From positions 1-37,805 of the forward strand of contig JADHWG010000010.1 of NCBI GenBank assembly GCA_016783605.1: DNA of 37,805 nucleotides, read 5' to 3'. Shown piece after piece: positions 9,232 to 15,064 of the stretch. Position 1 is the first letter of the stretch. Every line of letters begins with the position of its first letter. The stretch comes from Candidatus Omnitrophota bacterium. GTDB taxonomy: Bacteria; Omnitrophota; Gorgyraeia; Tantalellales; Tantalellaceae. The notes under the pieces were generated by a model. It saw nothing but the letters and a program-made list of their open reading frames with translations. It was not told where the DNA came from and did not search any database. The position numbers and the translations under genes were made by a program.

Positions 9232-9240
9232 ACATAATTA

Positions 9241-9690
9241 TCATCCCCGCCACACTATTGTCATCCCCGTCACTATTGTCATCCCCGCTACTATATTGTC
9301 ATCCCCGCGGAAGCGGGGATCCATAATATGAAGTAACAAAAATGTGTCGAAAGAGATTCCCGCGGAGGCGGGGATCCATAATATGAAGTAACGAAAATGT
9401 GTCGAAAGAGATTCCCGCTTCCGCGGGAATGACAAAGGGGTTGTCATCCCCGCGGAGGCGGGGATCCATAATATGAAGTAACGAAAATGTGTCGAAAGAG
9501 ATTCCCGCTTCCGCGGGAATGACAAAGGGGTTGTCATCCCCGCGGAGGCGGGGATCTATAATATGAAAGTAACGAAAATGTGTCGAAAGAGATTCCCGCT
9601 TCCGCGGGAATGACAATATGGGGTAGGGAATGACAATATGGGGTAGGGAATGACAATATGGGGTAGGGAATGACAATGTGGTGGCGGGCG
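9241..9690. repeat. Composite tandem array of family A palindromes (about 90-bp period) flanked by 20-bp-period arrays
   Basis: gtcatccccgcggaggcggggatccataatatgaagtaacgaaaatgtgtcgaaagagattcccgcttccgcgggaatgac repeats starting at 9443 and 9533 with variants upstream; tgacaatatggggtagggaa x3-4 at 9611-9680. Confidence 0.95.
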
Positions 9691-9697
9691 TACGATA

Positions 9698-10768
9698 TTA
9701 CCGCTCTGATGTTTTGTAATGTTCTTCAATGACATTTTGCGCGGATTTGTTCTGTGGTGTAAAATGCCTGTTATTTTCTCCTCCGGCACGTGTGTTTGTG
9801 TCCCATTTCCACCAGTATACACCTGCCAGCCATTTTTCATTCCAAACGGTTTCAAAAAACGCTTTATAACAGTTTGCCTGGATCTTGGGGTCGGCGTTTC
9901 CGCCGGTCGGGTTTTGCCATGGGGCGGAAGCGGCGTGAGAAGTCGAGGGGTAGCCGATTTCGGTAAAAAGGATGGGTTTATTGGTTTTTGCGTGCCATGT
10001 TTTGATCTCTTGCTTCCACCCTCGCCAGCCGTTCTTTAGATCTTCAAGCGAAGGGTTTGTTTTATGCGTAAGCGGGAAATAGGCGTCTATCCCGGCATAA
10101 TCGAGTTTGTCCCAGAAAGTTATATTTTTGTAATTGTCCCAGTTGGAAGCATAGACCAATTTCCCTCCATAAATATTTCGGATTTCATCAATAAGTTCTT
10201 CCCAATAAGAACTTTTTGTCGAAGCAAAAGAAAGTTCTGTTCCTATACAAAAAATTTCGACATTCATCCGTTCCGATAAGGCGGCATAATCGAGTATCAT
10301 TTTTTTGTAGCTCCGGAACCACTCTTTCCAGTCTTCTTCACAGCGGAATCCGATATCAGCTCTCCAATAAGTTCCGTCGAATTTATCTATCAAATCGAGA
10401 TGCGGTTTAAGCATTATTTTTAAATCGAGAGCTCGTGCCGTTGTGATCACATGAATCAGACTTTTTTTTGAGGAAGTTCTCTCAGTTTTATATATTTTTT
10501 TCGAATTATGTTTTTCCTGATAGTGAGTGGGACAAATGGAAACGTATTCTACGCCGAGAGACGTCAATTTTTTTAATGATTCGTCGGAATAATGGGACGC
10601 AAATTGGTTCTTTTCCCATACTGCGTAACACATTCCTTTCTGCATAGGCAGAAAATTTATTGCGGGATAAAATGAATAAGCTGGATTAGTGATAGAGGAT
10701 AGAATTAAAAATAGTGTCGAACAAAAAGCGATGATCTTTCTTCCGGTCAGTTTGTTATGGATATCCAC
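9698..10768 (-). CDS. Glycoside hydrolase, GH113 (endo-beta-1,4-mannanase)-like TIM barrel, secreted or membrane-anchored
   Basis: MLKPHLDLID..WRADI, FCIGTELSF, LVYASNWDNYKNITFWDKLDYAGIDAYFPL, PILFTEIGYPS. GTG start at 10768 preceded by AAGGAG; hydrophobic signal IIAFCSTLFLILSSI. Confidence 0.85.
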   Translation of the reverse strand: MDIHNKLTGRKIIAFCSTLFLILSSITNPAYSFYPAINFLPMQKGMCYAVWEKNQFASHYSDESLKKLTSLGVEYVSICPTHYQEKHNSKKIYKTERTSSKKSLIHVITTARALDLKIMLKPHLDLIDKFDGTYWRADIGFRCEEDWKEWFRSYKKMILDYAALSERMNVEIFCIGTELSFASTKSSYWEELIDEIRNIYGGKLVYASNWDNYKNITFWDKLDYAGIDAYFPLTHKTNPSLEDLKNGWRGWKQEIKTWHAKTNKPILFTEIGYPSTSHAASAPWQNPTGGNADPKIQANCYKAFFETVWNEKWLAGVYWWKWDTNTRAGGENNRHFTPQNKSAQNVIEEHYKTSER

Positions 10769-10838
10769 TTCGCGCTCCTTTTTTTTACCCGACAAGGATA
10801 AGTCTTGCAAAAAGTCAGCCACAGCGAAGCCCATAACG

Positions 10839-10951
10839 TAACCAAGTTCGGCAGTCTGACGACCATATTCTCCGAATTACGAAATAGAGAAGTTAGGTTC
10901 AAAACTTTGCAGTCCTAATCTTTCGATTAGTTTGCCCTTATCGTTCGATTA
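10839..10951 (-). ncRNA. Cyclic di-GMP-I (GEMM) riboswitch in the leader of the GH113-like gene
   Basis: Minus strand: GGGCAAACTAATCGAAAGATTAGGACTGCAAAG, then CCTAAC-TTCTC...GAGAA-TATGG, then GTCAGACTGCCGAA. P2 hairpin capped by GAAA, 11-nt-receptor-like CCTAAC/TATGG, P1 TAATCGA/TTGGTTA. Confidence 0.92.
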
Positions 10952-11067
10952 AACACCTGATTCTTTTTAAAGAACAAAGCCCGTATAATTAAATTTTACT
11001 GTAAATACACAACAAAGCAAGCCTCCCAAGCCAAGTGTTTAATCTTTAACCAAATTCCAGACCGTAA

Positions 11068-11123
11068 CCCACCAACAACCTCGTAGGTTACTACCTGTCA
11101 AGTTTTATGAGGTTGTTGGTGGG
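11068..11123. repeat. Constant-apex hairpin (family B) with an insertion
   Basis: CCCACCAACAACCT (11068-11081) ... AGGTTGTTGGTGGG (11110-11123), 14-bp perfect arms; CGTAGGT after the left arm. Confidence 0.85.
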
Positions 11124-11275
11124 GTGAGAGTGGTGGAGGTGGTAATTTTACGGGTGTTGGCGAAAAAAAGTTATTTATGGAGGCTTTTCTTTTTGCGGGA
11201 AAAGTTGTACAATGTGTCTTAAGCTATTTAAGGTGAGGAAAAGTCAAAACTTGTGTGTGCAATGGAGGTGTCGGA

Positions 11276-14200
11276 ATGAGAAGTAATTTGAAGGGAATGT
11301 CTTTGGGGGTTTTGTTTTGTTTTCTTGTCAATACTGTCGCGGGCGACGCGGCGTTTAGTCAAAACGTATTGGCGGAGGCGGAATATAAACTTGCGACACA
11401 GTCGATTTTTAGCGGATTGGCTGATATGGAATTTAGGGAAAGTGAAAATCTTAAACTTGTGGTTAAGGCGCATTTACTCGAAATTGCCCGTGGCAGTGAA
11501 AAAATAAAAATTAAAGACTTAATCAATTATGCGAAAGATCATTATAAAAACAGTATTTTTGACAAAACCCATGTGTATTTTTCCGAAGAACCCAAACTGC
11601 CCAAAGGTTTTAATTTGCTCGGAGGATATCACGCTCTTAAATGCCGTATTAAGGATGAGAATGACGAGACAAGAACGTATTACGCGGTTTTTTCACTAAA
11701 CAAGGACAGCGACAAAGGGTTCGATATAGAGGTTGTTGCAAGCCGGGAATGGGATAATCTTAAAAAACTATCGAATCCCCTTACAACTCTGCCGCAAAGA
11801 GCTTCTGAAAAACCAAAAGACGCTGAAACGCAAAGAAGGTATTCCGAACTAAATGAAGGCGTGATCGATAAATTTATAAGAGAACATATCGGTACAAAAG
11901 AGAATCCCGGAAGATTTACAGAATTTACGGGAAGAGCAAAAAAACTTGGTTGGAATACAAAATATCCAAATAGAGCAAGACCGGGACGATATTATGAGCC
12001 CATAAGCGGACAGTTCGATAATTTTCTATGGGCGAAAATCGAACAACAGTTAAGAAGGATTAACACTGTTTTTCAATTCGAAATTGCGTTTAAAAATAAA
12101 AATATCGTTTTAATTCCTTTAGAAAAAAATGAAAACCTTCCTGTTATTGAGGAAAGAGACCCGATAACCGGCAAGATCAGAAAGGTTTCGGTATCAAGCC
12201 ATACAAGCAAGAATGCCGTTTATTTTTTTATTAAGCAGGAGTTTTTGAATAAAATTATGACGGATAATAATCCATGGAATGACAATGAAATAATCTCGTT
12301 TTTCAGAAAACGAATAGTCCATGAAATAGGCGAAAGTTTCGGGTTGCCTATTGTTCAAATAACTGAAAATGGTCGCGTTTTAAACGATCTCGATATAATT
12401 TATGAAGCCTTAATTGACGGTTCGTATTATACAAATGCTGATGGGGAATTTGATACAAAAGTGCAAAACCTGAAAAAACTTACCCAAAACGATATTGTAA
12501 ATCTCGATCATCTCAGATGGAAATCTCCGATAACGGGGGAAGATGTGGAACGTGATTACGCGGCAGAGAAATTCGAAGAAATTGACGAAAAGGCAGGTCA
12601 AATACTTCAAAATTTTAAAAACATATCCGATCTTAAAACGCTTGAAATTGTATTTGGTTATGTGATCGGCATGGAAGACTTTTACGAATTTACAAGAGAT
12701 TATCCTGATCAGAATAGATTATTTTGCAGGGCTTTTGGAAATAAAACAGCAATAAATTCAGTCAGAAAAGCGCTTAAAACGGAGCATGGTAAACGTCTCG
12801 TGGCATTCAAGAAGGCTGAACTTGACGCTTGGAAAAAGGAAGTGCAGGATGAGAAAGACAGTCGAATACTTCAAAATTTTAAAAACATATCCGACCTTAA
12901 AACGCTTGACATTGTATTTGGTTATGTAATCCGCATGGAAAACTTTTACGAATTTACGCGAAACTATCCTGAGGAGGATAGATTATTCAGCGGGGCTTTT
13001 GGAAATGAAACAGCAATAGATTCAGTCAGAGACGCGCTTAAGACAGAGTATGGTAAGCGTCTTGTAGCGTTCAAGAAGGCTGAACTTGACGCGTGGGAAA
13101 AAGAAGTTCAGGACGAGAAAGAAAGTCGAATACTTCAAAATTTTAAAAACATATCCGATCTTAAAACGCTTGACATTGTATTTGGTTATGTGATCCGCAT
13201 GGAAGACTTTTACGAATTTACAAGAGATTATCCTGAGCAGAATAGATTATTTTGCAGGGCTTTTGGAGATAAAACAGCAATAAATCCTGTCAGAAAAGCG
13301 CTTAAGACGGAGTATGGTAAACGTCTTGTGGCGTTCAAGGAGGCTGAACTTGACGCTATGAATAAAGATGACGGAAAGGAAAAAGTTTTTAGTGAAGCGT
13401 ATCTGAATTTCCGGAAAGTAGAATTCATAGAGTCGGTTGAAAACGTGTTGAGTATTATGGATTCAAAAGAAGAGGACAATATTTCAGCTAACGAAGATGT
13501 GTTTGAGAATGTTTTCGGTACTACGAACTTGTCTGATATCAGTAATGCTTTAGAAACAAAAGAAGGGAAATTGTTAGTGGAAGCGTATCGTTTTGAAATT
13601 GAACAACACAACGCGCTTTTATCTGAACTCAAACTTAGGGAAATATGTGAGAATTTTAGAAAGGCACAATTCATAGAGTCAGTTGAAAACGTGTTGAGTA
13701 TTATGGATTCAAAAGAAGATGGCAATATTTCAGCTAACAAAGATGTGTTTAAGAACGTTTTCGACACTACGAGCTTGCCTGATATACGCATTGCCTTAGA
13801 AACAAAAGAAGGGAAATTGTTAACGGAAGCGTATCGTTTTGAAATTGCGCAGAATAACGTGGGTAAAGCTGAGAATGCACAGCGGGAAATATGCGAAAAT
13901 TTCAGAAGTGTGGATGACGTAGAGCTACTGGAAGACGCGATAAACGCAATAGATTCGCCGTTGGAAGAAGTTAACTCTACGGAAAACAAAAATATACTAA
14001 AAAGCGCGTTTGGGACGGATGTGCTTGCGACAGCACGTATTGCCTTGGGTTCTTCCATAGGAAAGAACCTCTTAGACGCGAGGCGTACGGAAATTATGGT
14101 TCACAAAGAAAAGAAAAAGGAAGAAAAAAGACAGCTTGTATTCAAAAATTTCAAGAATATTACAAACATGTCGGCGTTGTCTAAGATAATGGAAATAATT

Positions 14201-15064
14201 GACTCCGATCAAGCGACGATTACGGATCCATTTTTGATCAGTTTGTTTTTACGGGAGTTTCCCGGACTTACGGCTGAACTTGAATTTATGCGAAAAGCAT
14301 TAGAAACCAAACAGGGCAGGCTTCTTAAAAAAGTGAAACAAATGGAAATTGAGCGATGGATGGAATGGCTGAATAAGGAGCATGAAAAGAATTTAAAAAG
14401 TGTGGAGGAGAATATAACTCACCAAAACAACATTATCAAAATGGCCAAAAAGGTAGGCACAAAAATCACGCCGCCGAGTTGCCGGTATACGCTATTTACG
14501 TTTAACGACATGTATGTGGGAGATGAGTTTAAAGAAGATAAAAGTGCGTTCGCGAGCCGGTTCAGGCTATTACGAATAGGGACGGGTAAAACAAAAGGGC
14601 TCTCGAGAAGTATTTTGAGCAGGATGACGAAATTGGGGCTTGAGCCGAAAAATGTGATAGTACAGCTTCCATCAAGCATGGCAGATTCGGATGTTTTGAC
14701 CAAAATTAAAGAAAAAGCGCAGGGTATAAAGTTTATAGTTGTTGATACACAAGAATTGAAAGGGATAACGGATGAGTGTTCGCGAGAGCAATACCGCAGA
14801 AATATATATTCCATGATGTATCTTGCGAGGAATATTAATGGCGAAACACGGAAAGATTCAGAATTATACCTTTTTTTACGCCGTTTTGTAAAATGGCATT
14901 TTCCGGTTATGGAAGAGAGAGACGCCGAAATTGGCAAGTATATGCAGGCGTTGATGGAGAATGACCTATTAACCATAATCGGTTTTGCACTTTCATGTAT
15001 GCCCATACAAAAAGTGGCAGAACCGAACGCCGCTTTAACTTCTGCTACGTTTATTTATGCGTAG
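11276..15064 (+). CDS. Large secreted repeat protein of unknown function
   Basis: 1262 aa from ATG 11276 (GGAGGTGTCGGA upstream); signal-like MRSNLKGMSLGVLFCFLVNTVAGDAAFSQ; tandem 88-aa and 82-aa repeats; an isolated VHEIGE motif. Confidence 0.88.
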   Translation: MRSNLKGMSLGVLFCFLVNTVAGDAAFSQNVLAEAEYKLATQSIFSGLADMEFRESENLKLVVKAHLLEIARGSEKIKIKDLINYAKDHYKNSIFDKTHVYFSEEPKLPKGFNLLGGYHALKCRIKDENDETRTYYAVFSLNKDSDKGFDIEVVASREWDNLKKLSNPLTTLPQRASEKPKDAETQRRYSELNEGVIDKFIREHIGTKENPGRFTEFTGRAKKLGWNTKYPNRARPGRYYEPISGQFDNFLWAKIEQQLRRINTVFQFEIAFKNKNIVLIPLEKNENLPVIEERDPITGKIRKVSVSSHTSKNAVYFFIKQEFLNKIMTDNNPWNDNEIISFFRKRIVHEIGESFGLPIVQITENGRVLNDLDIIYEALIDGSYYTNADGEFDTKVQNLKKLTQNDIVNLDHLRWKSPITGEDVERDYAAEKFEEIDEKAGQILQNFKNISDLKTLEIVFGYVIGMEDFYEFTRDYPDQNRLFCRAFGNKTAINSVRKALKTEHGKRLVAFKKAELDAWKKEVQDEKDSRILQNFKNISDLKTLDIVFGYVIRMENFYEFTRNYPEEDRLFSGAFGNETAIDSVRDALKTEYGKRLVAFKKAELDAWEKEVQDEKESRILQNFKNISDLKTLDIVFGYVIRMEDFYEFTRDYPEQNRLFCRAFGDKTAINPVRKALKTEYGKRLVAFKEAELDAMNKDDGKEKVFSEAYLNFRKVEFIESVENVLSIMDSKEEDNISANEDVFENVFGTTNLSDISNALETKEGKLLVEAYRFEIEQHNALLSELKLREICENFRKAQFIESVENVLSIMDSKEDGNISANKDVFKNVFDTTSLPDIRIALETKEGKLLTEAYRFEIAQNNVGKAENAQREICENFRSVDDVELLEDAINAIDSPLEEVNSTENKNILKSAFGTDVLATARIALGSSIGKNLLDARRTEIMVHKEKKKEEKRQLVFKNFKNITNMSALSKIMEIIDSDQATITDPFLISLFLREFPGLTAELEFMRKALETKQGRLLKKVKQMEIERWMEWLNKEHEKNLKSVEENITHQNNIIKMAKKVGTKITPPSCRYTLFTFNDMYVGDEFKEDKSAFASRFRLLRIGTGKTKGLSRSILSRMTKLGLEPKNVIVQLPSSMADSDVLTKIKEKAQGIKFIVVDTQELKGITDECSREQYRRNIYSMMYLARNINGETRKDSELYLFLRRFVKWHFPVMEERDAEIGKYMQALMENDLLTIIGFALSCMPIQKVAEPNAALTSATFIYA
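12601..13370 (+). repeat. Three tandem 264-bp (88-aa) intragenic repeats
   Basis: aatacttcaaaattttaaaaacatatccga at 12601, 12865 and 13129 (period 264). Confidence 0.95.
13404..13895 (+). repeat. Two tandem 246-bp (82-aa) intragenic repeats
   Basis: aattcatagagtc[ga]gttgaaaacgtgttgagtattatggattcaaaagaag at 13422 and 13668 (period 246). Confidence 0.93.

Follow-up and report, generated by a model that had tools for sequence, protein, structure and literature searches.

A candidate c-di-GMP-I OFF riboswitch in the leader of a secreted, mannanase-like GH113 gene of Omnitrophota

The GbpA protein of Vibrio cholerae binds chitin and GlcNAc. Its gene follows a GEMM-I aptamer, Vc1, and its product has been found in culture supernatants; Vc1-dependent expression is reduced when c-di-GMP is lowered, and Vc1 has neither a terminator nor an anti-SD element (PMC4744006). 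In the transcriptional OFF switch Cd1 of Clostridioides difficile, the aptamer and the OFF hairpin can coexist, competing with an alternative fold (PMC9262584). BoxA elements are known in mRNA leaders, for example that of E. coli suhB (PMC5725501). For the phylum Omnitrophota, no mention of a riboswitch or of c-di-GMP was found in the literature searched.

The window analysed here is a stretch of 37,805 nucleotides from an Omnitrophota contig (JADHWG010000010.1). Its minus strand carries an aptamer that has in common with Vc2 of V. cholerae (RF01051) the full aptamer, the tetraloop and its receptor, G20 and A47, and P1; it falls within the range of the family, and the difference is in the host phylum. 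The layout of the leader matches that of Cd1, but the window platform looks translational and its anti-aptamer would pair with the J1/2 strand. Unlike the Vc1-controlled gene, the gene downstream is predicted to be repressed, not raised, by c-di-GMP. A further element shares the GYTCTTT core with the boxA of rRNA leaders and suhB, but directly precedes a riboswitch aptamer. We read the locus as a c-di-GMP riboswitch of class I that lies in the 5′ leader of a mannanase-like, secreted GH113 gene and acts as an OFF switch, and give this reading a probability of about 0.7.

Aptamer and host

Rfam cmscan matched positions 10847-10946 (minus strand) to the c-di-GMP-I family RF01051 at 67.2 bits (E 3.2e-11). 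The match exceeds the gathering cut-off of 35 bits and covers the complete model (1-87 of 87). Every one of the 22 model pairs is standard, and RF01051 is the sole family above its cut-off in the whole window. The order on the minus strand is GGGCAAAC, P2 with its GAAA tetraloop, GGACTGCAAAG, receptor, P3, GTCAGACTGCCGAA, P1; the tetraloop receptor CCTAAC/TATGG is in P3, whose arms are TTCTC/GAGAA. P1, which is not part of the Rfam model, closes the aptamer with 7 bp, two of them G-U, between 10945-10951 and 10839-10845 (minus strand). Across 17 orthologous leaders, P1 arms pair more strongly with their native partners than with those of other leaders (p 0.01). An earlier note, made from the letters, had called a c-di-GMP-I riboswitch here, listed its minus-strand elements and named an RF01051 search as a check; the search agrees over the complete model, and the listed elements are all present, including the 7-bp P1, far beyond chance.

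The equivalents of the ligand contacts are G20 at 10936 and A47 at 10908. Both were located from the distance of 27 nt that is reported for Vc2, Vc1 and Bc1 (PMC4744006, PMC11218506), allowing for one inserted nucleotide in the window aptamer. G20 is kept in the window and in all 17 GH113-linked aptamers. The window RNA is a genuine member of the RF01051 class, for which c-di-GMP binding is predicted. The class is already known; the window aptamer is a new, well-conserved member in a little-known phylum, and the support for its gene linkage and expression platform is unusually good.

The host assembly is a MAG of 1.65 Mb, 95% complete, with five RF01051 aptamers. MAGs of Candidatus Omnitrophota, Ca. 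Aadella gelida and Ca. Tantalella remota among them, hold the closest relatives of the GH113 protein. The host genome has six GGDEF and six PilZ matches. Four distinct GGDEF domains were read, and in these the GGEEF or GGDEF motif is intact and the Asp is present. That Asp in GGDEF domains is associated with the synthesis of c-di-GMP, not of cGAMP. RF01051 matches, 1-12 per genome, were found in 36 of 39 genomes from the family and from other families of its class.

Some of the genes that follow c-di-GMP-I aptamers in the host genome (contig C20) and its relatives encode Y1 transposase-type proteins (IS200-like/RAYT-type), called by Pfam domain at L003, L005 and L108 and by eye at L117 and L120. 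At L003, L005 and L120 the HUH motif seems to have lost its first His (LIH/FIH), which suggests domesticated, non-cutting proteins under riboswitch control. Elsewhere (L016, L018) the aptamers stand before large secreted TPS-domain proteins, adhesin-like; the downstream proteins of L102, L107 and L122 start similarly, judged by eye.

The GH113 gene and its linkage to the aptamer

The gene behind the aptamer (9698-10768, minus strand) encodes a 356-aa GH113 glycoside hydrolase. Its residues 52-336 match PF22612, the Pfam family for GH113, at 218.4 bits (E 1.7e-64; cut-off 27), and the endo-beta-1,4-mannanase 4cd6 in the PDB is hit at E 6.7e-31. The segments IFCIGTELSFA and ILFTEIGYPS align with the catalytic Glu motifs of 4cd6 and 3civ; we take both Glu to have the catalytic roles. 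The window enzyme is homologous to the GH113 endo-beta-1,4-mannanases (4cd6, 3civ, 5ylh, 7dv7) across the catalytic domain. It differs from them in its N-terminal signal peptide, and its mannanase activity is a prediction. That the N-terminus is signal-peptide-like was read from the sequence by eye. Breakdown of matrix or surface polysaccharide by this enzyme is conjecture.

The start codon is most likely the GTG at 10768. It is preferred over the listed ORF start, an ATG at 10834 within the leader just before a hairpin, because a Shine-Dalgarno sequence, AAGGAG (10775-10780, minus strand), precedes the GTG by 6 nt and the signal peptide follows it.

Aptamer-bearing GH113 loci number 17, of which 16 are in the family of the window and one (L099) is in another family. 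In each of the eight complete GTDB Omnitrophota orthologues with upstream DNA, the aptamer sits in the corresponding position and scores 46.7 bits or more; the Bacteroidota homologues do not have it there. In the GH113 tree the aptamer-linked genes of the family form one clade of 19 rows (f1, support 100/98), which otherwise contains just two tandem copies directly behind aptamer-linked genes. Four tree rows labelled "no group" (L051_+0_0, L057, L073, L075) are the same genes as L093, L094, L095 and L096. The aptamer is absent from all searched loci of the GH113 paralogue clade (about two dozen paralogues). The host genome has four GH113 matches, and three of them are without it. The aptamer is thus tied to one orthologous group.

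Because the pair is conserved in 17 loci, the window GH113 gene is very likely under the control of its upstream aptamer. The earlier note had proposed as much without giving a direction or naming the expression platform, the boxA-like element or the host. Its other claim on this gene, a secreted GH113-like glycosidase, fits the PF22612 and 4cd6 matches and the signal-peptide-like N-terminus.

Expression platform and direction of the switch

Between aptamer and gene, two elements co-vary across orthologues, a hairpin at the Shine-Dalgarno (SD) sequence and an anti-aptamer. When the downstream leader is folded alone, the hairpin (10767-10830, minus strand) closes the SD region together with the start codon. 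Its arms pair at a mean of -19.0 kcal/mol in 16 orthologues, against -12.4 kcal/mol (sd 0.8) when swapped among them; 0 of 20000 permutations reach the native value (p 5e-5), and the window pair ranks 1 of 16. Taken singly, the window hairpin is unexceptional (z -1.42, p 0.10; whole leader z -1.34).

The anti-aptamer, CCTTGTCG at 10790-10797 (minus strand), lies about 50-60 nt 3′ of the aptamer. It is complementary over 8 bp, one of them G-U, to CGATAAGG at 10936-10943 (minus strand), which comprises J1/2 and G20. The window duplex is worth -13.7 kcal/mol (p 0.012 against shuffles), and p falls below 0.05 individually in about half of 16 orthologues (mean z -2.2). In 13 orthologues the co-variation score in this register is 0.215 against 0.124 when shuffled (0/500), values that are optimistic because the register was picked by complementarity, which inflates the score; slid registers give at most 0.097. 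Four pairs are altered on both sides among these 13, and examples include GAAAAGG/CCTTTTC (L023), GACAAAG/CTTTGTC (L032) and GCGATAAAGGC/GCCTTTGTCGC (L094). Anti-aptamers swapped between species pair almost equally well, and the swap test is not significant (p 0.21), since both strands are conserved. A clean anti-aptamer is absent in five orthologues (L021, L096, L097, L099 and L020, the last with a shifted register). It was also considered as a general feature of GEMM-I leaders in the class and rejected, as 43 other loci average z -0.3.

Three GH113 loci have insertions within the aptamer (L094, L096, L106). At L106 more than 100 nt of repeat-like sequence stand between P2 and P3, and the anti-aptamer is still perfectly complementary.

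Seven orthologues (L009, L023, L032, L093, L095, L097, L098) have an extra hairpin and U-run between aptamer and SD sequence, which are terminator-like and may be intrinsic terminators. Unlike in these relatives, a simple terminator scan found no intrinsic terminator for the window gene. The window platform looks translational, with a terminator probably added in only some orthologues.

Taken together, the SD hairpin, the anti-aptamer and the orthologue terminators lead us to predict an OFF switch. When c-di-GMP is bound, the aptamer would retain its own 5′ strand (CGATAAGGGC), and the downstream hairpin would hide the SD sequence and the GTG start; in several relatives the intrinsic terminator would form too. 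In the absence of c-di-GMP, CCTTGTCG, aided by TTTGC, would pair with the aptamer 5′ strand and break the SD hairpin, and the enzyme would be made. The aptamer can coexist with the SD hairpin or terminator, and the anti-aptamer excludes the aptamer and extends into the hairpin, so the ligand should favour a closed SD sequence. Forced folds of the window come to -51.3 kcal/mol with the aptamer and -50.6 kcal/mol with the anti-aptamer, and this near equality fits the need of a ligand-driven switch. We infer both ligand binding and the direction of repression from sequence. The enzyme might serve matrix release or surface polysaccharide breakdown when c-di-GMP is low.

The opposite sign has to be weighed, since c-di-GMP-I switches of both kinds exist (PMC9262584) and the window does contain a pairing of the ON type. 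There, GTCAG of the P3 3′ strand (within 10866-10847) could pair with CTGAC before TTTTT (near 10814-10818) at -11.2 kcal/mol, the five U completing a ligand-free terminator that ligand binding would prevent. We hold such a design to be unlikely: its stem is short and its loop long, most orthologues reach just -2.5 to -6.8 kcal/mol (L093 -8.1), several have no U-run at the site, and the conserved CTTTTT makes better sense as the arm facing the SD sequence. If the aptamer were a relic beside the gene, decayed or without regulatory function, that would suit the aptamer insertions in some relatives and recall Bc1, a good-looking c-di-GMP-I aptamer that may hardly respond in vivo (PMC11218506), but the high-scoring, complete aptamer in nearly every orthologue and the co-varying platform make a relic highly improbable.

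The ligand might also be another cyclic dinucleotide, for example 3′,3′-cGAMP. In a few GEMM-I aptamers of the class, position 20 is an A (L013, L101, L110, L122, L132), a change that has been linked to cGAMP binding (PMC6274999). The same was suspected for the window, as orthologues differ in the base preceding GGCAAAC; this reading was dropped because the 27-nt spacing makes G20 the opening G of GGCAAAC, a base that is invariant in all GH113-linked loci. With G20 kept throughout these loci, and with the Asp that marks c-di-GMP synthesis present in the host GGDEF domains that were read, a different ligand is very improbable.

If c-di-GMP does repress the gene, an uncultured phylum gains a concrete c-di-GMP output, namely a family-wide secreted polysaccharide-degrading enzyme predicted to be off at high c-di-GMP. 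Such a rule would be in keeping with detachment from surfaces or matrix as c-di-GMP falls.

Promoter, boxA-like element and flanking sequence

A candidate promoter (10993-11020, minus strand) has a -35 element TTGCTT (11020-11015), a 16-nt spacer and a -10 element TAAAAT (10998-10993); from its match to consensus, the transcript likely starts near 10986. Seven of the 17 GH113 leaders match the pattern CTTGC...[AG]TA[AT]A[CA]T, at positions -63 to -80 relative to the aptamer.

Between promoter and aptamer, about 11 nt 3′ of the predicted transcript start, lies GTTCTTT (10969-10975, minus strand), with the GYTCTTT core. We call it boxA-like, a putative NusB/NusE site; it could alternatively pair with the SD sequence. 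In the 40 nt that precede the aptamer, G[CT]TCTTT is present at 13 of 17 GH113 loci (0.3 in shuffles) and at 17 of 56 other GEMM-I loci of the class (0.45 expected). A general habit of placing GYTCTTT before genes was rejected: 8 of 188 upstream regions, drawn from about 0.41 Mb of the host genome in 20 stretches, have it, fewer than on the opposite strand. In 16S rRNA leaders of relatives the motif is present about 53 nt before the 16S rRNA in L135, L136 and L138, and farther upstream of it in L133, L137 and L139.

The literature searched gave no case of boxA combined with a c-di-GMP riboswitch, and this leader is the newest part of the finding and the likeliest to interest specialists. The frequency of the boxA-like element before aptamers suggests that one leader may combine a riboswitch with Nus-complex transcription. 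We tentatively propose, at somewhat less than even odds, a composite Omnitrophota leader in which an rRNA-type boxA would recruit the Nus complex ahead of the c-di-GMP riboswitch, the GH113 leaders adding a co-evolved dual OFF platform (translation and termination). If true, polymerase modified for rRNA-like transcription, or for RNA folding, would transcribe the switch and the long genes for surface or secreted proteins that follow it.

Upstream of the promoter, between the divergent genes, is an 18-nt inverted repeat, CCCACCAACAACCTCGTA, with a 20-nt spacer (11068-11123). The divergent gene (11255-15064, plus strand) encodes a 1269-aa protein with a signal-like start and internal repeats (QNFKNISDLKTLDIVFGYVIRM...), for which no convincing Pfam family was found. 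Directly 3′ of the GH113 gene, a repeat cluster (9237-9685) holds 90-nt units with ATTCCCGCGGAGGCGGGGAT-type palindromes and 20-nt tandem units of GGGAATGACAATATGGGGTA.
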